Positions 16,606 to 36,742 of a stretch of DNA of 64,000 bases are shown here, in pieces (position 1 is the stretch's first letter; each line of letters begins with the position of its first letter). A model generated the notes under the pieces. That model made no database searches. It saw only the letters and a program-made list of their open reading frames with translations, and was not told the origin of the DNA. Where the stretch lies: contig CALUIM010000005.1 in assembly GCA_944320725.1 (NCBI GenBank), positions 86,472-150,471 on the forward strand, in the 5' to 3' direction. Source of the DNA: an uncultured Coriobacteriaceae bacterium (GTDB taxonomy: Bacteria > Actinomycetota > Coriobacteriia > Coriobacteriales > Coriobacteriaceae). The translations under genes were made by a program, and so were the position numbers.

Positions 16606-18216
16606 CTAGACACCGTACTCGGCGAGATAGTCGAGAATCTCCTGACGGGAATGCAGGTTGGTTTTGTCGTAGATGCGCTTGATGTGCGTATGCACGGTGT
16701 TTTGCGAGAGCTGCAGCTCTTCGCTTACGCGCGCTTGTGTATGGCCGAGAGCATAGAGCGTGAGCACCTCGATTTCGCGTCCCGTGAGGCCAAACTGCTG
16801 TCCCAGCGCGATAACCGACGTGGCGATGTGCACGTTCGCGGCGCCGCTGGGAAGCGTGCTCTGTCCCTCGGGGGGAACGCCCATCATGCTCATGAGCGGC
16901 AGGGCGTCTTTTTCCTCCGCCGAAGGCTGCTCGCCCGTGGTGCGATCGGCAGAATCGGCCGCGGCGTCGGCGCGCTCCCCGCGTACGGTGTCAGCACCGG
17001 TGCTGCCGCCTGGTGCGAGACTCGCTTGACGCGATGGATCGCTCAACAGCTGCGTGAAGACCACCTGTGCGCTGGCGAGCACGCACAGCCCCATGATGGC
17101 CACCACAAGCGCCGTGTTGTGAGGGGCGAGCGTTGAGAGCGCGATGCCTGCGGCGCCGCCCACCGCCTCGAGCAGGCACATCGCCACCCAAACCACCGCG
17201 GTGTAGAAGTACGGGTCGCGCGTTCCAAAGCTTAAAAACGCTACGGAGAGATACCAGGCGAACGCCTGCAGAATGAGCGAGGTGGCAAGCGTTGCCGCAC
17301 GACCTGCCAGCGCACCGCCGCCGCCGATGGCGATGAGGATCATGGCGCACGAGACCAGCAGCTCCATAACGAGCCACACGAGCGTGGTGAGCGCATGTCC
17401 CGTCGCCTTCTGCACGCGCCGCATGCCCAGGCCGGCGAGCGCAACGATGACGAGAAGCGTGAGGCAGCGTTCGGCGAAGTTGATGAACGGTGCGCTGGTG
17501 GCGGGGTCTTTGCCCAGCGGAATCGCAGTGCCCAAACCAAGCGGTACCGCCATGAAGCAAATGCCGAGTGCCGCCGCCGCAAGATATCCGCGGCTCGAAA
17601 AGCGCATCTCGCCCGTTCCGAAATAGGCTTCCGAGGCAGCAGGGTAAAAATCGCTGGGAACCTGCATCGCGCGCGACGCCTTCACGGCGGCGAACTGCAC
17701 GAACGCAAACACGAAGGCAGCTCCATAAGCCACCGTGTCCGTCCAACCGAATACGAAGACGGCTATCTCGGAGCACGCCGCAGCGGCAAGCGCCACGAGG
17801 GCAACCTCGCGCGCTGCGGTGCCGCGGAGCTTGCGGAGCCAGAAGCATGCAAGTGCCGCATTGCCTCCGGCAACGATGGCCTCGAGGAGGGCCACTACGA
17901 TACTGGGCAGCTGCGCCCCCATGATGCCGATGAGCATGAGTACGAGCGCGGCGATGCCGGCGACATGAATCGAAAGAAACGTGAGGAGCGCCACGCGCGG
18001 CTTGGGAAGGCGTCCCGCGCGCTGGGCGATGGCGCCGAGCAGGGCGATGAGCGCACAGCCGAGCACCATGGGGACAAAGTCGAGCGATGGCGCCGCACCG
18101 CCGCGATGGCCGTTGAAGAGCGTGAGGCTCAGGCAAGCAGAGGAGAGTGCAAGGCCCAGCACTGGCGGTATGAGCGAGCGCGTGCCCAGCGCATCGTCGC
18201 GAGCCTCTTCCGCCAT
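16606..18216 (-). CDS. Membrane LuxR-family regulator (multi-helix N-terminal sensor plus C-terminal HTH)
   Basis: From the ATG at 18216 (AAGGAGGTGA ribosome site) the protein has 536 residues. Roughly residues 15-380 form about 12 hydrophobic helices, followed by a polar linker. The last 65 residues are a LuxR HTH (LTGREIEVLTLYALGHTQ, then LSQNTVHTHIKRIY). Such membrane-bound LuxR proteins are abundant in Coriobacteriia and their ligands are mostly unknown. It is divergent from the 18341 gene and the redox block. A motif in its promoter region recurs upstream of the iron-sulfur gene, suggesting control of that block. Confidence 0.88.
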   Translation of the reverse strand: MAEEARDDALGTRSLIPPVLGLALSSACLSLTLFNGHRGGAAPSLDFVPMVLGCALIALLGAIAQRAGRLPKPRVALLTFLSIHVAGIAALVLMLIGIMGAQLPSIVVALLEAIVAGGNAALACFWLRKLRGTAAREVALVALAAAACSEIAVFVFGWTDTVAYGAAFVFAFVQFAAVKASRAMQVPSDFYPAASEAYFGTGEMRFSSRGYLAAAALGICFMAVPLGLGTAIPLGKDPATSAPFINFAERCLTLLVIVALAGLGMRRVQKATGHALTTLVWLVMELLVSCAMILIAIGGGGALAGRAATLATSLILQAFAWYLSVAFLSFGTRDPYFYTAVVWVAMCLLEAVGGAAGIALSTLAPHNTALVVAIMGLCVLASAQVVFTQLLSDPSRQASLAPGGSTGADTVRGERADAAADSADRTTGEQPSAEEKDALPLMSMMGVPPEGQSTLPSGAANVHIATSVIALGQQFGLTGREIEVLTLYALGHTQARVSEELQLSQNTVHTHIKRIYDKTNLHSRQEILDYLAEYGV

Positions 18217-18250
18217 GCTGTCACCTCCTTGAAGATCAGGGTGGATGCGG

Positions 18251-18281
18251 GTCACCTGTTTTAGGTCATTCCGCAGGTGAA
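18251..18281. promoter_or_regulatory. Candidate LuxR-regulator site in the divergent promoter region
   Basis: GTCACCTGTTTT (18251-18262) and GCAGGTGAA (18273-18281) form an inverted CAGGTGA pair. The same two strings, AAAACAGGTGAC and GCAGGTGAA, recur upstream of the Tat iron-sulfur gene at 19824-19890. A 12-base exact match in two promoter regions 1.6 kb apart is unlikely by chance; binding is inferred. Confidence 0.45.
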
Positions 18282-18340: not shown

Positions 18341-19120
18341 ATGGAAGATACGGACGCGCAGCGCGCATACGCTGAGGCTGACGTCGAGGCGATACCAGCG
18401 GATGGCGAAGACGCTGAGCGTGCGCTCACTGAGGAGAAGCGTGCGGCAATACAGGCGCGCAACGCATTCATTCGCGCGGCAGACGCGGCGCTCACCGATA
18501 TCCGCCAGCGTTCCTACGAGGGCAAGCTCACCACAACGACGCGCTGGAAGAAGCGCGCTTTTGCCCCCGTGGGCATGGATGCCAAGACGTTCACCGAGCA
18601 GCTCATGATCTACATCCAAGATCGCGATCACGCCGAGGCGAAGCCTGTGATGGGGCGTGTGGCTGCCCCGAAGCCCTTGGAGGTCGAGCTTGAAGGCGTC
18701 GAGCTTGCCGATACCGACGAGCTGCCCGACCTCGATGTGAGCGACATCGCGTTCATATTTGGCAAGAAGGGCATCTACCTGTATTCGGTGGCGTTGCTCT
18801 CGCACAGCTTTGCCCGCGCGCTGTACCTCACGGCCGAGGATAACGATATGGCGACGTTCGTCGATGTGGTGCGCACAGAATCGAGCACGTATCCGCGACC
18901 GGTAGGTATCGATGCCTTCATGAACCCGCCGTATCTCTGGCCGCGTTCCAAGACGCTTCGCGTGTTTGACGAGGTGGTTGCCACGGGCTCGTTCAACGAT
19001 ATCAAGCAGACTGCGACGTCGTTCGGCACGCCGTATTTCTACTCGGATATGTATCTCAGCGAAGCGCAGGCTGCCTCGCTGGCGCAGTGGTATGGCGTCG
19101 AGCGCGGCATGAATCCGTAA
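18341..19120 (+). CDS. Unknown soluble protein heading the redox block
   Basis: I do not recognise this 259-residue protein. It has an acidic, charged N-terminus (residues 1-60), no signal peptide and no clear membrane span. A C-terminal region rich in aromatics includes MNPPYLWPRSKTL near residue 195. The ATG follows a GGGGGAG site. The NifU-like gene begins 35 bases later on the same strand, so they are probably co-transcribed. Its position next to the LuxR regulator and before the Fe-S, AOR and cytochrome genes suggests an accessory role such as chaperone or maturation factor, but nothing in the sequence proves this. Confidence 0.75.
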   Translation: MEDTDAQRAYAEADVEAIPADGEDAERALTEEKRAAIQARNAFIRAADAALTDIRQRSYEGKLTTTTRWKKRAFAPVGMDAKTFTEQLMIYIQDRDHAEAKPVMGRVAAPKPLEVELEGVELADTDELPDLDVSDIAFIFGKKGIYLYSVALLSHSFARALYLTAEDNDMATFVDVVRTESSTYPRPVGIDAFMNPPYLWPRSKTLRVFDEVVATGSFNDIKQTATSFGTPYFYSDMYLSEAQAASLAQWYGVERGMNP

Positions 19121-19155
19121 TACCCATTTGCGTGAGACGTGGAGAAGGAGCAGCT

Positions 19156-19749
19156 ATGCCCAGACATCTTACCGAGGACGCGCCGTTTTTGCGGACGCCC
19201 GACATGTATCAGATCGAGCGCGACGCGCCCATCTCGGAATACCCCAAGCAGGCGATTGACCTGATTGCCGATGCGGTGAACGGCGGCGTGCCCGAGGGCG
19301 CCAATGCGTTCTGCAGTGTTGGCAAGGAGAAGCGCGGCACAGTGCAGATGCAGCTCTTCGCCGTCGTCGATGCGTCTGAAGATCGCTTCGTCGAGGTGGG
19401 CTTCCGAAGCCATGGGTGCCTTGCCGCCATTGCCTGCGCCACGGCGATCGCGACGCTGCTGCGGGGCAAGACGATAGCAGAGGCGCTTGAGATCACCCGT
19501 GAGGACATCACGGCGCTTACCGGCGAGCTGCCCGAGAGCCGTGCCTACACCTATATCTTTGCCCTCGAGGCCATTCGCGCGCTGGTGGGCAACTACTGCT
19601 TGAAGCAAAAGGGGTACTCGATTGCCGACCTTGATGCGTTCGCGCCCTGCCAGAAGCTCAGCGTTCCGTGCATGCTCACCGAGAACTGCTCGCTGCGCGA
19701 CGATCGCGTGGAGCAAGAGCTCAAGGAGCGTGGCGAGCTCAAGGGTTAG
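19156..19749 (+). CDS. NifU/IscU-like iron-sulfur scaffold protein
   Basis: From the ATG at 19156 (GAAGGAG site) the protein has 197 residues. The core FRSHGCLAAIACATAIATLL followed by a GKTIAEAL helix resembles the NifU N-terminal scaffold fold, with candidate cluster cysteines near residues 56 and 116 and in FCSVG. A C-terminal tail of about 60 residues holds further cysteines (PCQKLSVPCMLTENC), unlike plain IscU. It lies 260 bases before a gene for a protein with four [4Fe-4S] sites, so local cluster assembly for that protein or the AOR enzyme is plausible. Confidence 0.7.
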   Translation: MPRHLTEDAPFLRTPDMYQIERDAPISEYPKQAIDLIADAVNGGVPEGANAFCSVGKEKRGTVQMQLFAVVDASEDRFVEVGFRSHGCLAAIACATAIATLLRGKTIAEALEITREDITALTGELPESRAYTYIFALEAIRALVGNYCLKQKGYSIADLDAFAPCQKLSVPCMLTENCSLRDDRVEQELKERGELKG

Positions 19750-19823
19750 TGCGGGATTATGGAATCCGCGTGGGGTGTGCGGCATTTCTGCACCTAGACG
19801 CGGTGCGCTCAGGTGGGTACCCC

Positions 19824-19890
19824 AAAACAGGTGACAGGGCTTCTATGCTGGTAGCGACCTGAAAAGGCAAATTACCCAGAAGCAGGTGAA
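19824..19890. promoter_or_regulatory. Second copy of the LuxR-region motifs upstream of the Tat iron-sulfur gene
   Basis: AAAACAGGTGAC (19824-19835) and GCAGGTGAA (19882-19890) match the two motifs of the luxR/18341 divergent region, here in direct orientation. They stand 120-185 bases before the iron-sulfur gene, within the only sizeable gap of the redox block, and mark a likely internal promoter region. Confidence 0.45.
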
Positions 19891-19917
19891 GCCGCGTGAC
19901 CAAATAAGGTGACAATG

Positions 19918-19973
19918 GTACACGGCGGATTGCGCGTATCGCCCGCGCAGTCGTCGTACCAAGTACACGGCGG
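19918..19973 (+). repeat. Direct repeat GTACACGGCGG in the leader of the iron-sulfur gene
   Basis: The 11-base string GTACACGGCGG occurs at 19918-19928 and 19963-19973, 45 bases apart. A spacing of about four helical turns would put two bound proteins on the same face of the DNA. It may be a second regulator site. Confidence 0.4.
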
Positions 19974-20009
19974 CCACGGGACCGCCGTACGATGTAAGGG
20001 GAGGGAACT

Positions 20010-20732
20010 ATGAAAGAGAACACCGCCTTGGAGCAGGTGGGCTCCGGCGCGGATCGCCTCAACTCCTTCTTTACCCGTCGCGGGTTTGTGAAGGTGTCGG
20101 GGGCGTTCGTGGCGAGCATGGTGGCTCTCGGCCTGCTCCCGGAGCCGGCGGCGGCAGCGCCGACGAGCTCGAACGGAGCGGTTGACTACTATGCGTGCCC
20201 CACGCACGTGCTCAAGGTGAACCGTGCCCGCTGCACGGGTTGCCAGCGTTGCGAGATGAGCTGCACGCTCACCAACGACGGCGTGTCCCAGCCTGCGGCC
20301 GCCCGCATCCACGTGCGCGACGGCTTCAACTTCGGCGCCGGGCTCGACACGGCCGACGGCACCTTCTACTCGCAGGAGTGGCAGGTCCGTACGTGCCACA
20401 TGTGCAAGACCGCGCTCTGCCAGACCGCATGCCCGCATGGTGCCATCTTCACCAACGAGAACGGCGTGCGCGTGGTCGATGCCGAGAAGTGCGTCGGCTG
20501 CGGCAACTGCGTGTCTGCGTGCCCGTGGAACATGCCCGTTGTGAACACCGTGACCGGCAAGTCCTCGAAGTGCGTCGCCTGCGGTCGCTGCGTCGAGCAG
20601 TGCCCCAACGGAGCCATCGAGCTCATCGAGTGGGAGGATGTCAACCATTCCTCCGGCCCGACTCGCTTCGAGACCACGTTCCCGCTGGTGAGCGAGACGC
20701 AGGACTTCGTCGGCGGCGGCCACGTCGCGTAA
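20010..20732 (+). CDS. Tat-exported ferredoxin-like protein with four [4Fe-4S] sites
   Basis: The 240-residue protein starts with a twin-arginine signal (TRRGFVK, Arg23-Arg24, then a hydrophobic stretch and AAAA at 47-50). Four cysteine groups follow: C75/78/81/85, C129/132/137/141, C161/164/167/171 and C188/191/194/198. This is the arrangement of HybA/NrfC/YdhY-type electron-transfer subunits. The signal implies it works outside the membrane after cytoplasmic cluster insertion. The AOR-family gene begins 17 bases later, so this is its probable electron-transfer partner, comparable to the YdhY-YdhV pair of enteric bacteria. The ATG follows GGGGAGGG. Confidence 0.93.
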   Translation: MKENTALEQVGSGADRLNSFFTRRGFVKVSGAFVASMVALGLLPEPAAAAPTSSNGAVDYYACPTHVLKVNRARCTGCQRCEMSCTLTNDGVSQPAAARIHVRDGFNFGAGLDTADGTFYSQEWQVRTCHMCKTALCQTACPHGAIFTNENGVRVVDAEKCVGCGNCVSACPWNMPVVNTVTGKSSKCVACGRCVEQCPNGAIELIEWEDVNHSSGPTRFETTFPLVSETQDFVGGGHVA

Positions 20733-20749
20733 GGTAAGGAGTAACTTAA

Positions 20750-23002
20750 ATGGCTGATACTGCCACTTTCGGTTCTTACGGTTGGATGGGCCAGATCGCC
20801 CGTGTCAACCTCTCGACCGGCGAGATCACGGTCGAGTCCGACGAGGCCATGCAGAAGGACTACATCGGCGGCATGGGCTTCGCCAACAAGATCATGTACG
20901 ACGAGGTGCCCGCTGGCACCGCGTGGGACGCCCCCGAGAACAAGGCTGTTCTCGCCGTGGGCCCGCTCACCGCTTCCGGCGTGCCCCTGGCTGGTCGCTC
21001 CACGTGGGCGACGCTGTCCACCTTCTCGAAGGACTTCCTCATCGTCGACGCGCACTGCGGCGGCAACCTGGGCGCCCAGCTCAAGTTCTCGGGTCATGAC
21101 GGCCTCATCATCGAGGGCGCCTCCGAGACCCCGTGCTACATCCTGATCGACGATGACAAGATCTCGATCGAGGACGCCTCCGCCGTCTGGGGCAAGGGTA
21201 CCCGCGAGACCACCGAGGCGCTCTGCCAGAAGCACGGTCTCGAGGCTTGCGTGGCCGCCATCGGTCCCGCGGGCGAGAACCTGCTCCCCTATGCGTGCGT
21301 CATGAACACCCGCAGCCACTCCGCGGGCGCTGGCCTGGGCGCCGTGCTCGGTTCCAAGAAGTGCAAGGCCGTTGTGGTCAAGGGCACCAAGGCTGTCAAC
21401 GTTGCCGACCCGCAGATGGTCTCCGACCTCTCCGATTACATGATCGCCGAGGTCCTGGGATCCAACAACAACCATGTTGTGCCGTCGACCCAGCAGTCCT
21501 GGGCCGAGTACTACGACGCTGGTTCGCGTTGGACCGCCAAGAAGGGCCTGTACTGGGCAGCTGCCGAGGGCGGCCCCATCGAGACCGGCGAACCCAAGCC
21601 CTTCGAGCCCAACACCATGGGCTATCGCTGCATGAAGTCCACCAAGGACATGGGTCCCGAGGCCGAGAAGTACACCGTCAAGATGGCCGGCTGCCACGGC
21701 TGCCCCGTGCGCTGCTACTCGATGATTCGCGACCCGCGCGTCCTCGAGGCCACCGGCTACGCTTCTTCGGGCAACACCTGCGTGCCGAACTTCCCGTTCT
21801 CCACGTACATGCAGCCCATCATGAAGGCTCAGGGCATCATGAACGACGAGGTCAAGACCGATACCTCCGTCTTCTATGACCAGCTCATCTCCGCCACGGT
21901 CGATGACCTTGGTCTGTGGTGCAACTACGCGCAGCTCTACCGCGACATCGCCTGGACCTATGCCCAGGGCATCCTCGCCGAGCACGTGCCGGCCGAGCAG
22001 ATGGCCGAGTACAACTTCGACGCCATCGTGAACAACGGCGACCCCACCTCCTTCATCAAGATCCTGGTGGACATCGCCTCCAACGACGTCGAGAACAAGC
22101 CCATCGCGCTGCTGGGTCACGGCCCGATGGTGTGGTGCAAGGAATGGAACCACATGGAGTGGTTCGACACCACCGCCTCCACCCTCATCAACTACCGCGG
22201 CTGGCCCGTGCACCACGCGCACGAGTGCTTCGGCCAGGTGGGCGCGCTCTACAACATGGTCTTCAACCGCGACGACATGATTCACTCCGCGGTGAACTTC
22301 CAGGGCTGCGGCCTGCCCATCGACCTCAAGAAGGAGATGGCCGAGGAGATGTGGGGCTCGGCGGACGCGGTCGACCCCAACAAGGACTACACGCCCATGA
22401 ACGAGGCCAAGGCCGAGTTCTGCTGGTGGTCCATCGTCACCGACGTGCTGCATGACTGCCTGACGCTGTGCAACTGGGTGTGGCCCATGGCCATGGCGCC
22501 CGCCAAGGAGCGCAGCTACCGCGGCGACCTCGACCTCGAGGCCCAGTTCTACACCGCGGTCACCGGCCAGGAGATCACGATCGACGATCTCTACAAGGCC
22601 GCCGAGCGCGTCATGACCCTCCAGCGCGCCAACACCGCGCGCGGCATGACTGACGCCGATGGCAACATGGGTTGCAACGACTTCCGCAACATCCATGACA
22701 CCATTACCGAGTGGCCCTTCACCAAGGATCCGGACATCGAGCCCTTCACCGCCGGCACCGACAAGATGGAGAAAGAGGACTGGCAGACGGCCCTCACCAT
22801 GCTGTACAAGCGTTTCGGCTGGGACGAGGAGCTGGGCTGCCCCACCAAGGAGTGCCTCGAGGACCTCGGTCTCGACGACGTTGCCTCCGACCTCGAGGAG
22901 CTCGGTCTCCTTACTGAGGGCGGCGCCGCGTACGACGATCGTACCCGCACCTACGCTGGTTGCCTTGCCGAGTACTGCGGCGACAACCCGGCGCTGGCCT
23001 AG
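20750..23002 (+). CDS. Aldehyde:ferredoxin oxidoreductase (AOR)-family tungstoenzyme
   Basis: The 750-residue protein has the AOR N-terminal domain (GPLTASGVPLAGR near residues 71-83). The cluster ligands are Cys315, Cys318 and Cys322 (CHGCPVRC), with a fourth, Cys574, in a D-x4-C motif. This matches the AOR pattern that binds one [4Fe-4S] next to a tungsto-bispterin. It is longer than archaeal AOR (about 600) and nearer YdhV. It has no signal peptide although its neighbour has a Tat signal, so it may be exported as a passenger or stay cytoplasmic. Codon use is strongly biased (Lys almost always AAG, Asn AAC), suggesting high expression. Substrate unknown. Confidence 0.92.
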   Translation: MADTATFGSYGWMGQIARVNLSTGEITVESDEAMQKDYIGGMGFANKIMYDEVPAGTAWDAPENKAVLAVGPLTASGVPLAGRSTWATLSTFSKDFLIVDAHCGGNLGAQLKFSGHDGLIIEGASETPCYILIDDDKISIEDASAVWGKGTRETTEALCQKHGLEACVAAIGPAGENLLPYACVMNTRSHSAGAGLGAVLGSKKCKAVVVKGTKAVNVADPQMVSDLSDYMIAEVLGSNNNHVVPSTQQSWAEYYDAGSRWTAKKGLYWAAAEGGPIETGEPKPFEPNTMGYRCMKSTKDMGPEAEKYTVKMAGCHGCPVRCYSMIRDPRVLEATGYASSGNTCVPNFPFSTYMQPIMKAQGIMNDEVKTDTSVFYDQLISATVDDLGLWCNYAQLYRDIAWTYAQGILAEHVPAEQMAEYNFDAIVNNGDPTSFIKILVDIASNDVENKPIALLGHGPMVWCKEWNHMEWFDTTASTLINYRGWPVHHAHECFGQVGALYNMVFNRDDMIHSAVNFQGCGLPIDLKKEMAEEMWGSADAVDPNKDYTPMNEAKAEFCWWSIVTDVLHDCLTLCNWVWPMAMAPAKERSYRGDLDLEAQFYTAVTGQEITIDDLYKAAERVMTLQRANTARGMTDADGNMGCNDFRNIHDTITEWPFTKDPDIEPFTAGTDKMEKEDWQTALTMLYKRFGWDEELGCPTKECLEDLGLDDVASDLEELGLLTEGGAAYDDRTRTYAGCLAEYCGDNPALA

Positions 23003-23022
23003 TTGCCTGAGAGGAGATAGCA

Positions 23023-23691
23023 ATGGCTGACGAGAAGAAGGAGACCACGGGTACCACCGAGGCCGCTCCTAAGAAGAAGAATTGGAAGGCGAAGCGCCTG
23101 CCCATCGTGATCGCCGCCGTCGTGGTTGTCACGGTGCTGGGCGTCGCCGGCTGGGCCTGGCGCGCCACGCCCGAGTACTGCGACTCCATGTGCCACAGCA
23201 CCATGGGCAAGTACTACAACTCCTACATGAACGACACCGAGTCGCTCGCCTATGCGCACAAGGGCGTTGTCGAGGGCGACTGCCTGGGCTGCCACGAGCA
23301 GACCCTCTCGCAGATGGGCAGCCAGATCTCGGCGCAGCTCTCCGGTAGCCACGAGACCCCGCTTGCCAAGGAGACCTACTCCAACGAGTTCTGCCTGCAG
23401 AGTGGTTGCCACGCGGGCGCCGGTGTGATGCCGGGTGCCTCTGAGTCGTCCACGGCCGACCTCAGCTTCGATCCGCACAGCGATTACCACGGCGTGCAGC
23501 AGTGCAACTCCTGCCACCGCTTCCATGACCAGAGCGTCTTCACTTGCGCTACCTGCCACCAGGTTGGCGCCTGGGAGGGCGAGGGCGGCGTGCCTGAGGG
23601 CTGGACCGTCCAGGATCTTGGTTACGGCAAGGAGGGCGCTGTGCCCGACGGCTGGACCACCCCCGACCTGTTCGAGACCGCGTCCGAGTAG
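23023..23691 (+). CDS. Membrane-anchored multiheme cytochrome c, NapC/NrfH-like
   Basis: The 222-residue protein has one N-terminal anchor (about residues 26-47) followed by five heme-type motifs: C53-x3-C57-H58, C87-x2-C90-H91, C124-x4-C129-H130, C161-x2-C164-H165 and C175-x2-C178-H179. Two have expanded spacing. The first, followed by STM, resembles the membrane-proximal heme of NapC/NrfH quinol dehydrogenases. It would link the menaquinone pool to the Tat iron-sulfur subunit and the AOR enzyme. The tail holds a short repeat, VPxGWTxxDL, at 190-199 and 207-216. It starts 20 bases after the AOR gene. Confidence 0.9.
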   Translation: MADEKKETTGTTEAAPKKKNWKAKRLPIVIAAVVVVTVLGVAGWAWRATPEYCDSMCHSTMGKYYNSYMNDTESLAYAHKGVVEGDCLGCHEQTLSQMGSQISAQLSGSHETPLAKETYSNEFCLQSGCHAGAGVMPGASESSTADLSFDPHSDYHGVQQCNSCHRFHDQSVFTCATCHQVGAWEGEGGVPEGWTVQDLGYGKEGAVPDGWTTPDLFETASE

Positions 23692-23876: not shown

Positions 23877-24143
23877 ATGGTTTCGATCGATTTCACGCCG
23901 CGCGGGGTGTGCTCGCGCAGCATCCATGTTGACCTGGACGATGCGGGCCAAGTTGTCGAGGGCTGCTCGTTTGTGGGCGGCTGCAACGGTAACCTTAAGG
24001 CTATCTCGAAGCTCGTGAAGGGTATGCCGGTTGAGCAGGTTATCGCTGTGCTCGATGGCAACACCTGCGGTGCTAAGCCCACCTCGTGCGCCGATCAGCT
24101 GTGTCGCGCCCTCGAGGCGGCACGCGCGCAGGCGCAGGCATAA
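23877..24143 (+). CDS. Small TSCPD-domain protein, TIGR03905-like
   Basis: The 88-residue protein matches the four-cysteine TSCPD family in size and pattern: a start FTPRGVCSR, a central GGCNGN and a C-terminal CGAKPTSCADQLC. The family is widespread in anaerobes, often near redox or vitamin B12-type genes, and has no proven function; a metal or cluster site is plausible from the cysteines. The ATG follows GGGGAGG. It is 20 bases before the Tat lipoprotein gene and probably co-transcribed with it. Confidence 0.8.
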   Translation: MVSIDFTPRGVCSRSIHVDLDDAGQVVEGCSFVGGCNGNLKAISKLVKGMPVEQVIAVLDGNTCGAKPTSCADQLCRALEAARAQAQA

Positions 24144-24163: not shown

Positions 24164-25423
24164 ATGTTCGGACGCAGACGGGACAACCAGCGACAGGGTA
24201 CGGGCGCCGCCGCAGCGGCAGATGGGCGCGGTATCACGCGGCGTCGTTTCGCGACGGGCACCGCGCTCGCCATCGGCGCCGGCATTGCGACGATCAGCCT
24301 GACGTCGTGCGGTAACGACAAGAAGAAGCAGACAACGGGCGAGCCCCAGGTGGTGACCGATGATTCGCAGGTCATCTCGGTGCTCGACGGCGACTATGCC
24401 AACGTCGATAACCCGCTGGTGGAGTCTGGCAGCTGGACGCTCCCCTTAGGCACGCTGCTGTTTCACACCGGCGGCACGTGGGCAGCGGCGATGCTCACGC
24501 CCGAATCGTCGCTCCATATCAATACGCTGGGAACGCTCAGCCTCTCGAGCGGGAATATGGTCACGCTGCTCGAATCGCCGGCGCAGGGGCGCGGCTTTGA
24601 CTTCTTCGACGTGCGCTGCTCGGACGAGGTCTATGCGTGGGTCGAGATCAACTACACCGATCGTTCATGGGCGCTCTTGGGTCAGGGATTTTCTTCCGGC
24701 AGCCTCACCGGCGACCCCGTTCAGCTCGATTCAGGCGATGTCGATTGGGAGCCGCCGCGCTTCACGGTGTGGGGCTCGAGCGTGATCTGGCAGAAGATGC
24801 CGCTTGCAACTGGCGAGGCGTCGTCTGAAGACTCGCATTGCTATCGCTGGACGCTCGGCGATACCGAAGGTTCCGATCTGTGGACGTCGCACGGGCGCTT
24901 TGCCACAAGCCCGCGCGTCTCGAACGGAATTCTCACCATTGCCCCGCGCGTGCGCGGCGATGAGGGCGTGTACTACGGCATGACCGCCATCGACCTTACC
25001 GATGACAACAACACGCAGGTCGACCAGCTCGTATTGCCACGCACCGTGGCGCCATTTACGGCCGACTATATGAACGAGTCGTTCGTCTTCTCCATCGAGG
25101 CAAGCTACAACGGCTTAGGGAGCCTAGGCAACATGGGCACCTTCGTGGGACGCGAGGGCGGGCCCTACACCTATGTGCGCCGAGAGCCGCTCTCGGCCGC
25201 GGTGGGCAACGGGTCGCGGCTGCTTGTTAAGGCGCAGGCCTCGAATTTCGTCATCGACCTCGAGGAGCATACGTACGCTACCCTTCACGCCCCCGATCGA
25301 TCGCTCGATTTTGGTGAGTGGCCGGCAACCGAGGGTGCCAGCGAGCGCTTCCTTTCGTATGCCACCGTGCGCAACGACCAAGGCGTTCCCGAGAGCGTGG
25401 TGGCGCGCGTCTTCAGTATCTAA
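24164..25423 (+). CDS. Tat-signal lipoprotein of unknown function
   Basis: The 419-residue protein has a twin-arginine motif (TRRRFA at 25-30), a hydrophobic stretch and a lipobox LTSC with Cys49. It is therefore predicted to be exported by Tat and lipid-anchored outside the membrane. The rest has repeated aromatic and aspartate-rich blades that could form a beta-propeller, but I recognise no family. Tat use suggests folding, or a cofactor, before export. It lies next to the redox block and may belong to it functionally. Confidence 0.75.
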   Translation: MFGRRRDNQRQGTGAAAAADGRGITRRRFATGTALAIGAGIATISLTSCGNDKKKQTTGEPQVVTDDSQVISVLDGDYANVDNPLVESGSWTLPLGTLLFHTGGTWAAAMLTPESSLHINTLGTLSLSSGNMVTLLESPAQGRGFDFFDVRCSDEVYAWVEINYTDRSWALLGQGFSSGSLTGDPVQLDSGDVDWEPPRFTVWGSSVIWQKMPLATGEASSEDSHCYRWTLGDTEGSDLWTSHGRFATSPRVSNGILTIAPRVRGDEGVYYGMTAIDLTDDNNTQVDQLVLPRTVAPFTADYMNESFVFSIEASYNGLGSLGNMGTFVGREGGPYTYVRREPLSAAVGNGSRLLVKAQASNFVIDLEEHTYATLHAPDRSLDFGEWPATEGASERFLSYATVRNDQGVPESVVARVFSI

Positions 25424-34961: not shown

Positions 34962-36227
34962 TTAGATCGCGGCGCTGAGGCTGCGCGCGCGGCGGATGGC
35001 TTCGGGGACGCGAGCGGCTAGTAGGTCGATATCCTTGGCACGCACATCATCGGCAAGCGAAAGACGCAGGCTGCCGCGCGCCCAGCGCGGATCGGTTATA
35101 CCGAGCGCGGTGATGACATGCGAAGGCCCGGTCTCGCCTGTGGAGCAGGCTGAGCCCGTGGCGGCGGCAACACCTGCGCGGTCGAGCAGCACCACAAGTA
35201 GCTCGCCATCCACGTCTTTGCAAAGGAGCGAAGCAATGCCCGGTAGGCGACGGTCGGCATGGGGGTCGCCGGTTGCGCGCACGTCGGGAACAGTAGTAAC
35301 AATGCGTTCGATGAGCTCGTCGCGAAGATGCGCCACGCGTTCCATGCGCGCTGCTTGATCATTGAGCTCCTGCTCAAGTGCGGTCGCCATGCCAACGGCA
35401 CCTGCGACGTTTTCGGTGCCGGCACGCATGCCGCGCTCCTGAGCGCCCCCTTGGATAAGGGGCGGAATGGAGAACCCTTCGCGCAGGTAGAGCGCGCCGG
35501 TTCCGCGCGGTCCGTGGAACTTGTGCGCCGAGAGCGAGAGCGCGTCCACGTCAAGCTCCTGCACGTTTACCGGGATATGTCCTACCGCCTGCACCGCATC
35601 GGTGTGGAAGGGCACGTCATGCGCGTGTGTTATCTGAGCGAGCTGAGAGACCGGTTGGATTGTGCCCACTTCGTTGTTGGCGAGCATAATCGATACCAGC
35701 GCAGCAGGGGGAGCGTCGATCCCATCGGCATCGTTGCGCTGCTGTAGCTGCGCAAGCGTTTTTGCGAGCGTTTCCGGCGCTACGTGGCATTGCGCATCGA
35801 CGGGCAGGTAGATGGTCTCCACGCCGCTGCGTGCGAGTGCCTCGCAGGTATGGAGCACCGCATGGTGCTCGACAGCGCTGGTAATCAGGCGAACGGGAGC
35901 ATCCGCTCCGTAGAGATCGCGAAACCGCTGCACGGCCCCGGTAAGCACCCATACATCAGATTCCGATCCACCGCTCGTGAAATAGATTTCGCGCGGCAAC
36001 ACCGCGCCAAGGCATGAGGCGATGCGCGAGCGCGCCGCCTCGAGTGCCTCCGCAGCTTCCCGCGAAATGCGATGGATGCCGCTCGGGTTGCCGTAGGCGG
36101 AGGTGAGATACGGCATCATGGCATCGAGCGCCGCGGGCGCAAGCGGTGTGGTGGCGGCATTATCTGCGTAGATGTAGGGCATATCGGCGGCGTGCGCCGC
36201 TGCTTCATGCGGTGTAGATTCGTTCAT
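34962..36227 (-). CDS. Cysteine desulfurase, NifS/IscS type
   Basis: The 421-residue PLP enzyme has the N-terminal DNAATTPLAP segment, the PLP lysine in LSAHKFHGPRG and the catalytic loop ATGSACSTGE, whose cysteine carries the persulfide. It supplies sulfur for iron-sulfur clusters or thiolated tRNA. The ATG at 36227 has a GAGGAG site. It lies 26 bases after a small membrane-protein gene. The NifU-like protein of the redox block is about 15 kb away; no IscU or thiI gene is adjacent here. Confidence 0.93.
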   Translation of the reverse strand: MNESTPHEAAAHAADMPYIYADNAATTPLAPAALDAMMPYLTSAYGNPSGIHRISREAAEALEAARSRIASCLGAVLPREIYFTSGGSESDVWVLTGAVQRFRDLYGADAPVRLITSAVEHHAVLHTCEALARSGVETIYLPVDAQCHVAPETLAKTLAQLQQRNDADGIDAPPAALVSIMLANNEVGTIQPVSQLAQITHAHDVPFHTDAVQAVGHIPVNVQELDVDALSLSAHKFHGPRGTGALYLREGFSIPPLIQGGAQERGMRAGTENVAGAVGMATALEQELNDQAARMERVAHLRDELIERIVTTVPDVRATGDPHADRRLPGIASLLCKDVDGELLVVLLDRAGVAAATGSACSTGETGPSHVITALGITDPRWARGSLRLSLADDVRAKDIDLLAARVPEAIRRARSLSAAI

Positions 36228-36253
36228 GATGGCTCCTCGCGACACCGAAGAGC

Positions 36254-36742
36254 TTACCGCAGAATGAAGAACCAAGCCACGACAGCGATGATAACTAGCA
36301 GCGCGACAAGCAGCACGATATGCGCGACGTGCCGGCGCGCTCGCGCCTGCCGTGCGGTGAAAATCGCCTTGCCGGGCTTGGGCGTTTGGAGGTAGCGCTC
36401 GTAATGAAGCGGCGCGTGTTGAGGTTGACCGTCTGGTCCCGCGGTGCGCTGCTGGCGTGGATGGGCAGGATGCGTGGGCCGTGTGCGGGGCAGATATTGC
36501 GGGTCGGAGGTGGCGACGCCCATATGCTTGCGGCCACTGGGAGCATCTACGTGCACCTGGTCGTCTTGAATGGGCTCTTGGGTGACATGCTGTCGCGGTC
36601 GTTGGTACGGGGCGCTCGACGACGTATATCGTGGGGTGTCCGCATGCGATGCGTGCGCAACATCGTGCAAGGGCGCACGCATTGCGTCAACGCCCTGCTC
36701 GCGTAGATAGCGCGATGCGTTGCTGTTATTGGTGCCGGCCAT
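36254..36742 (-). CDS. Small C-tail-anchored membrane protein
   Basis: From the ATG at 36742 (AGAAGGA site) the protein has 162 residues: a long proline/glutamine/histidine-rich hydrophilic region with basic end, then one C-terminal hydrophobic segment of about 20 residues. It appears tail-anchored with a disordered cytoplasmic part. It is upstream of the cysteine desulfurase on the same strand. I recognise no family. Confidence 0.6.
   Translation of the reverse strand: MAGTNNSNASRYLREQGVDAMRAPLHDVAHASHADTPRYTSSSAPYQRPRQHVTQEPIQDDQVHVDAPSGRKHMGVATSDPQYLPRTRPTHPAHPRQQRTAGPDGQPQHAPLHYERYLQTPKPGKAIFTARQARARRHVAHIVLLVALLVIIAVVAWFFILR

Follow-up and report, generated by a model that had tools for sequence, protein, structure and literature searches.

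How does an enzyme of the aldehyde oxidoreductase (AOR) family come to be encoded between a twin-arginine (Tat) iron-sulfur protein and a multihaem cytochrome c, and what are the two genes ahead of them for? This question is raised by a stretch of 64,000 nucleotides (hereafter the window) of contig CALUIM010000005.1, from an uncultured gut bacterium of the Coriobacteriaceae (assembly GCA_944320725.1), where open reading frame (ORF) and domain searches place five genes on the + strand (18341-23691) in the order YdhW-like, NifU-like, YdhY-like, YdhV-type AOR and multihaem cytochrome (Table 1). The reading that we favour as fairly probable is that they encode a Class V-type terminal reductase working on the outer face of the membrane, together with a dedicated NifU-like/YdhW maturation pair.

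Judged by sequence likeness, the cluster is of the E. coli ydh kind, since its V, Y and W-like products all resemble YdhV, YdhY and YdhW. The AOR product scores 965 bits against the YdhV equivalog NF007354 (cut-off 868), carries both AOR domains (PF02730 or AFOR_N, 209.5 bits; PF01314 or AFOR_C, 110.9 bits) and shares 51-52% of its residues with E. coli YdhV in pairwise alignment; the YdhY-like protein is 40% identical to E. coli YdhY and matches NF007382 (E 2.6e-50) with 171 bits, under the model cut-off of 213; the YdhW-like protein shows 26% identity with E. coli YdhW across 173 residues and matches NF007411 (E 3e-30) with 106 bits, for a cut-off of 203. An initial annotation, made from the letters alone, had rightly recognized a Tat-exported-type protein with four [4Fe-4S] sites (for which we find the motif TRRGFVK and four 4Cys motifs), an AOR-family gene with CHGCPVRC (here at residues 315-322) and without signal peptide, and a NifU-like gene preceding them together with an “unknown” one, a label that falls now that the latter proves to be YdhW-like; it overlooked the E. 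coli YdhYV family, the standing of these two genes as a conserved accessory pair, and the possibility that the metal is Mo.

Close named loci belong to an uncultured Coriobacteriaceae bacterium (97%), to “Candidatus Coprousia avicola” (Coriobacteriaceae, 91%) and to a Collinsella sp. (89%). A contig scan for relatives kept 79 loci out of 190 stretches encoding a relative, all of those kept having Coriobacteriia names except three titled only “bacterium” (L079, L098, L113), so that the comparison covers these loci and not more distant carriers. One has to bear in mind that most row and locus counts given here include duplicates (the window as WIN, and again as Q in alignments; L022/L053; L019/L109), and that the 84 rows with YdhV are made up of 26 with the cytochrome, 57 others and E. 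coli.

On the strength of AOR family knowledge, we take C315, C318, C322 and C574 of YdhV to be its [4Fe-4S] ligands. A further conserved cysteine, C344, is aligned with Cys336 of E. coli YdhV, a metal ligand and the counterpart of BamB Cys322 (PMC12096430), and the metal site is therefore of the YdhV/BamB type rather than of the aldehyde-oxidoreductase type. The same cysteine, a WorL with N- and C-terminal AFOR domains and a four-cluster Tat WorS are also what characterizes the Class V WORs, a class consisting of clade 41 only, whose WorS has a Tat signal and/or a transmembrane domain (PMC13328260, June 2026); our placement in clade 41 with E. coli YdhV comes from the NF007354 equivalog score and not from a tree against the other 91 clades. 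The class calls for a further subunit, for which the cytochrome gene directly after YdhV is a putative candidate, and for a membrane-side location, predicted here from the Tat signal and the cytochrome anchor. Membrane association and a respiratory role are suggested in the main text of that paper, with Collinsella among the carriers, so the core idea (Tat partner, membrane side, respiratory AOR) is already in print. As an aside on YdhV, two YdhV-like frames of more than 1000 bits each lie within one locus in L105 (Parvibacter caecicola) and in L090 (an Eggerthellaceae metagenome-assembled genome).

What, then, are the NifU-like and YdhW-like proteins doing in such a cluster? In our view they are probably a cytoplasmic maturation pair of the YdhV enzyme, because the NifU-like protein co-occurs with YdhV, sometimes from another contig, is in places fused to YdhW and is in others followed by an overlapping NifS-type gene. 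Across the 65 genomes of the family, YdhV and the NifU-like protein (at least 278 bits, all other matches listed scoring at most 24 bits) are found in the identical 30 genomes, four of which (G013, G017, G021, G024) carry the two genes on different contigs. Across the 296 genomes of the class, YdhV is over the cut-off in 78, the NifU-like protein scores at least 100 bits in 77, and the two coincide in 76; in G034, the NifU-like protein accompanies a YdhV split in two pieces. The fusion to YdhW is seen in 12 of 67 loci, and the NifS-type gene, overlapping the NifU-like gene by about 87 bp, in L060 (Slackia isoflavoniconvertens) and L110 (S. exigua).

The structure model of the NifU-like protein (pLDDT 89.7) matches IscU 2z7e, with a TM score of 0.84 by target length. 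The fold is thus that of IscU, but the ligands are not: at the positions of the cluster-binding residues of IscU (three Cys, one His), the window protein has Arg, Cys, Tyr and Thr. Over 68 NifU-like rows, the first of these positions is Arg in 58, His in seven, Lys in two, Ser in one and never Cys, the second is Cys in 63, the third His in 12 and the fourth Cys in a single row. The C-terminal three-Cys motif is invariant (42/42 rows in one alignment; 68/68, of which 65 distinct, in the other), and a four-Cys site formed by the fold Cys and these three C-terminal Cys is predicted. We found no paper tying a NifU-like protein to YdhV in the open-licence literature searched, supplements being outside the search; co-occurrence, fusion and gene neighbourhood make this protein a candidate system-specific molybdoenzyme chaperone. 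PMC13328260 describes IscS as co-purifying with a recombinant L subunit of clade 41, an association that the authors deem unrelated; given a NifU-fold protein tied to the enzyme, this co-purification deserves a second look.

The two proteins could also be regulators or structural subunits instead of maturases, which we regard as rather unlikely. The YdhW-like model (pLDDT 91.7) contains winged-helix-like parts. With its net charge of -14, the window protein does not look like a usual DNA binder, and cofactor work is indicated by the NifU fold, by the NifS-type gene adjoining in two loci and by the fusion to YdhW. We also read by eye a cysteine desulfurase-like frame at 34962-36275 (- strand), 11-12 kb downstream of the cluster and unlinked to it.

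If the pair prepares an enzyme, where does this enzyme get its electrons? What is new here, beside the tie of the NifU-like protein to the enzyme, the co-inheritance with cytochrome c assembly and a source genome in which no further Mo/W-pterin enzyme of two families was found, is that in the Collinsella lineage a Cgr1-like cytochrome occupies the place that a dimethyl sulfoxide (DMSO)-reductase/NrfD module has in other Coriobacteriia loci. The constant core of these loci is Y-V plus W and NifU, and the quinone-side module varies: NrfD type in most of the other Coriobacteriia loci, YdhXU in E. coli, the cytochrome in Collinsella. DMSO-reductase-family and NrfD-like genes, counted as matches at E ≤1e-10 to the genes of locus L072 (PhsA/QrcB-like, NrfC-like and NrfD-like by NCBIfam), are present in 50 of the 57 rows without the cytochrome (E. 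coli excluded) versus none of the 26 with it, and the seven rows without the module (L066, L071, L073, L088, L102, L105, L116) end about 1.8 kb or less from Y or V on that side; the cytochrome of the Collinsella lineage thus occupies the place of the module of the other loci. The gene order of Collinsella-type loci is LuxR, W, NifU, Y, V, cytochrome. All 25 cytochrome rows with a full-length V (window and one duplicate included) have Y adjacent, so the conserved co-occurrence of the trio that the initial annotation had proposed as a check holds there, and fails in loci outside the Collinsella lineage, where the cytochrome is missing. In an 84-tip tree rooted on E. coli (duplicates in, fragment L069 out), the 26 cytochrome tips form one clade with a support of 1.0, which fits a single gain. 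Beside YdhY in L072, the DMSO-reductase-family gene itself (L072:5603-7810, - strand) also shows a match to QrcB that spans most of its sequence (E 8e-33) and may be a non-catalytic relative.

The window cytochrome has a Lys-rich start, one hydrophobic segment and then the haem motifs CX3CH, CX2CH, CX4CH, CX2CH and CX2CH, whose ten Cys are invariant in 27/27 cytochrome rows. It had been described as a single-span NapC/NrfH-like protein; the single span stands, while among Pfam families at E ≤0.01 the NapC/NrfH family (Cytochrom_NNT) gives no match, PF14537 (E 2e-8) being the only one over its cut-off. The Cgr1 equivalog NF051471 is matched with 88 bits (E 5e-25) and its cut-off of 340 is not reached, hence our wording “Cgr1-like” and not Cgr1. 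A search of 5.8 billion proteins, which requires shared 5-residue words and similar length, returned only 51 relatives at E ≤0.001.

Cytochrome c assembly (PF01578) is encoded in 29 of the 30 YdhV genomes and in 0 of the 35 others, the exception being G007, which is 81% complete. YdhV and the capacity for c-type cytochrome production are thus coupled across the family, and one genus (g3) by itself includes genomes that have the two traits and genomes that lack them. A respiratory link is suggested by this tracking and by the position of the cytochrome where the NrfD-type module stands elsewhere. In the source genome (2.07 Mb, 99.5% complete, a single AFOR_N match), the PF01578 gene clusters with CcmE-like and CcmF/NrfE-like genes, and no C-Xn-CH gene was seen near this assembly cluster.

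The link to the pterin cofactor is drawn in the same way. Over the 65 genomes, moaA is over the cut-off in 53, PF00384 is found in 21 and PF02738 in 39. The link follows because moaA is over the cut-off in 14 of the 15 genomes that have YdhV without PF00384 and PF02738 (G002 giving a partial match of 259 bits), versus 0 of the 10 that have none of the three enzymes; for the 25 genomes with PF00384/PF02738 only, the figure is 24, the miss being G070, 72% complete. The source genome keeps moaA, next to a downstream gene that combines MoaC and MobB parts, and shows no PF00384 or PF02738 match, sulfite-oxidase-type enzymes having been outside the search. As for the metal, the term “tungstoenzyme” used at first is right about the AOR family and leaves tungsten unestablished: ModA is over the cut-off in the source genome, in a stretch that also reads by eye as ModBC, MogA and MoeA, the tungstate transporter TupA was not searched for there, and the metal preferences given in the main text of PMC13328260 are Mo for E. 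coli YdhV and W for a C. somerae relative. ModA does not track the AOR, being present in 53/65 family genomes and missing from the AOR genome G019. PF00384 frames of formate-dehydrogenase size that carry a single in-frame TGA, possibly a selenocysteine codon, occur in family genomes without YdhV (e.g., G041:C1:420264-421553).

Put together, these parts suggest the following mechanism. In the cytoplasm, the NifU-like protein would deliver Fe-S to YdhV/YdhY from its fold Cys and three C-terminal Cys, with the YdhW-like protein as its maturation partner; the YdhV-YdhY pair would assemble and then be exported jointly through Tat on the signal of YdhY; electrons would pass from menaquinol to the haems, to the four [4Fe-4S] clusters, to the [4Fe-4S] cluster of YdhV and to Mo/W, where the acceptor would be reduced, and the LuxR protein would induce the system. 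The version towards which we lean is that the enzyme acts as a reductase on the outer face and that the cytochrome supplies it with electrons from menaquinol.

Could the electrons run the other way, an outside donor being oxidised and its electrons passing through Fe-S clusters and haems into menaquinone? Multihaem cytochromes are able to work in both directions. Most characterised AOR relatives do oxidise aldehydes (PMC12096430), but the extra metal-binding Cys, conserved here, and the absence of AOR second-shell residues from the YdhV clade (same source) speak against aldehyde oxidation, as does a clade member inactive on 46 aldehydes (PMC13328260); moreover, the closest model of our cytochrome, Cgr1, has been proposed as the electron donor to a Tat-exported reductase (PMC5953540). 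We therefore hold the reverse direction to be unlikely.

The location of the reductase can be argued from three sides. An outer side is predicted because YdhY has a Tat motif, because the haem motifs of the cytochrome follow one hydrophobic segment after a Lys-rich start, and because the YdhY-like protein resembles the small subunits of solved AOR complexes (9mqx_E, 8c0z_C, 6x1o_B). The Tat motif was assigned by eye; its twin Arg is present in 81/82 rows, E. coli being the sole exception, and the 16 Cys of YdhY are invariant in 82/82. From the Tat signal of YdhY and the existence of AOR large-small subunit complexes in the PDB, we infer that YdhV is exported with YdhY; a respiratory AOR carried to the membrane side by its Tat Fe-S partner, the central proposal of the initial annotation, fits the evidence and had already been made for the clade, a periplasmic Ydh reductase having also been predicted for E. 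coli (PMC4257093), with the AOR outside the cytoplasm remaining its predicted part.

YdhV might conversely stay in the cytoplasm with another partner, Y and the cytochrome serving a different exported enzyme. It has no signal of its own: no in-frame ATG, GTG or TTG lies 5′ of 20750 for a longer start, and simple hydropathy counting gives no hydrophobic segment. Moreover, in non-Collinsella loci Y is on the strand opposite V, and DMSO-reductase-family and NrfD-like genes are nearby in most of them, as counted above. Against this, Y, V and the cytochrome are contiguous in Collinsella-type loci, the DMSO-reductase gene is absent from 26/26 of their stretches, neither a PF00384 nor a PF02738 enzyme was found in the source genome, and Y is homologous to AOR small subunits, so we consider this version improbable. 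As for an ordinary soluble tungsten aldehyde:ferredoxin oxidoreductase that adjoins respiratory genes by chance, it has the AFOR_N and AFOR_C domains on its side and is hardly credible in view of the YdhV equivalog score, the extra Cys ligand and the conserved partners, which already disfavoured it.

Several points nevertheless weigh against an outer-face reductase with its own maturation pair. G194 and G273 have YdhV over the cut-off without the NifU-like protein; outside the order, three genomes of the class have YdhV-like matches under the cut-off without a NifU-like match of 100 bits (G161, 769 bits; G145, 534 bits; G123, 412 bits, in pieces), and in the E. coli operon YdhW and YdhV are not accompanied by a NifU-like gene, so the W-NifU pair is not universal. 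Counts of genomes overstate the number of independent events, the family genomes being related, and the assembly genes may serve further c-type cytochromes of the source genome. YdhV lacks a signal, and that of two Eggerthellaceae is predicted to be cytoplasmic (PMC4257093). The reductase direction is suggested by analogy, with Cgr1 as the nearest model. Finally, the main text of PMC13328260 gives no known activity for clade-41 enzymes; the inactive member mentioned above, CsWOR41L, the L subunit of C. somerae, contained W, and the S subunit was not recovered alongside.

These last results are where the cluster may be of use, as it gives candidate parts of a working enzyme, namely a cytochrome specific to it as electron donor, and two maturation factors. 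This may bear on the inactivity of the recombinant L subunit from that other genus and on its missing S subunit, provided that such a pair exists there. YdhV is the only Mo/W-pterin user detected in the source genome among the families tested, a simple background for metal and substrate, and the co-inheritance pattern offers a direct genetic test in gut bacteria. A bolder and more tentative version is that Coriobacteriia invented a metallocentre factory that serves a single respiratory enzyme. In this version, a protein of IscU fold without the IscU site, with a new four-Cys site (one fold Cys plus C-x6-C-x5-C-SLR), paired with or fused to YdhW, might load YdhV/YdhY with Fe-S, or with the sulfur of the Mo/W centre, ahead of export through Tat, the Collinsella lineage keeping its whole c-type cytochrome pathway for that enzyme; the AOR superfamily would then have its first Fe-S maturase specific to one system.

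Table 1. Coordinates of the genes, predicted sites and candidate control elements of the ydh-type cluster (window positions).
Feature	Position	Strand	Evidence
LuxR-type regulator, 12 hydrophobic segments, candidate substrate-responsive activator	16606..18255	-	PF00196 GerE, E 1.9e-13
YdhW-like protein	18341..19120	+	NF007411 below cut-off; E. coli YdhW alignment; model
Protein of 197 residues with NifU_N fold, predicted to deliver Fe-S/sulfur to the AOR	19156..19749	+	PF01592, E 1.3e-16
Codons of C-terminal C-x6-C-x5-C motif (Cys 165, 172, 178), then SLR	19648..19689	+	invariance in alignments
AGGTGA/TTACCC boxes ahead of Tat gene, candidate operator of second transcription unit	19829..19914	+	positions; relatives
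YdhY/WorS-type Tat Fe-S subunit, four predicted [4Fe-4S] clusters	20010..20732	+	NF007382, Tat motif, 16 Cys
Catalytic Mo/W-pterin subunit of the AOR family (YdhV/WorL type), 750 residues, without signal peptide	20750..23002	+	NF007354, PF02730, PF01314
CHGCPVRC, presumed [4Fe-4S] ligands C315, C318, C322	21692..21715	+	invariant in 26/26 YdhV sequences
C344, extra metal-binding Cys, equivalent to E. coli YdhV C336	21779..21781	+	alignment; invariant in 26/26
C574, presumed fourth [4Fe-4S] ligand	22469-22471	+	invariant in 26/26 aligned YdhV
Membrane-anchored Cgr1-like multihaem cytochrome c, five C-Xn-CH motifs	23023..23691	+	PF14537, NF051471

The genes around the cluster and the gaps within it give some hints on regulation. 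The LuxR gene diverges from the cluster, as had been noticed; its hydrophobic segments were counted by simple hydropathy, a match of more than 90 bits is found in 59/84 rows, and 12-transmembrane LuxR activators are known from E. lenta (PMC9734109). TCACCT at 18252 and AGGTGA at 18275 lie between LuxR and YdhW (18252-18280), and AGGTGA/TTACCC boxes recur in the 260 bp that separate the NifU-like gene from the Tat gene; at least one such box is present in the upstream stretches of 19 of 23 relatives, a count made without a chance control. We propose the AGGTGA/TCACCT boxes as a candidate LuxR operator; taken by itself, the 8-base AGGTGACA shows no enrichment within the 64-kb window. The five genes are co-directional, with gaps of only 17 and 20 bp between Y, V and the cytochrome, but the boxed 260-bp gap and a W-NifU pair that in several relatives is divergent, or outside the stretch read, cast doubt on the single operon first proposed. 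The third-position guanine-cytosine content of Y, V and the cytochrome (0.88-0.90) is the highest among the frames listed in the window, which suggests that the three are strongly expressed. Further downstream, 23877-24143 encodes a TIGR03905 TSCPD protein (108.6 bits, cut-off 67.7), found directly 3′ of the cytochrome in nearly all Collinsella-type loci, possibly by synteny only, and 24164-25423 a 419-residue protein that begins like a Tat lipoprotein, matches no Pfam family, is kept in Collinsella-type loci and is encoded next to a response-regulator gene.

How does the cluster compare with known systems? With E. coli ydhYVWXUT, whose YdhV is a bis-molybdopterin molybdoenzyme, it shares YdhY, YdhV and YdhW homologues, a Tat-like Fe-S partner and the C336/C344 cysteine; no YdhX, YdhU or YdhT was found in the window cluster, which encodes in their stead the NifU-like protein and the multihaem cytochrome c. 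The Class V WORs of clade 41, as described in the main text of PMC13328260, have in common with it a Tat WorS, a WorL and a proposed membrane association and respiratory role; the transmembrane and unknown pyranopterin subunits given there for Class V Coriobacteria fit the DMSO-reductase/NrfD loci and not the window, and the words NifU and heme are absent from that main text, figures and supplements being outside the comparison. Cgr1-Cgr2 of Eggerthella lenta and the quinol dehydrogenases NrfH/NapC likewise set a one-span multihaem cytochrome (PF14537) beside a Tat-exported redox partner, but here the catalytic part is a Mo/W enzyme and not a flavoprotein, and the five haem-like motifs include CX3CH and CX4CH. 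With the IscU/NifU scaffolds, finally, the NifU-like protein shares the fold and one cluster Cys (63/68 rows); it differs from them in that the first ligand Cys is replaced, the last is lost in 67/68 rows and a new C-terminal three-Cys motif has appeared, and in that it goes with a single enzyme system and, in some loci, forms one protein with YdhW.

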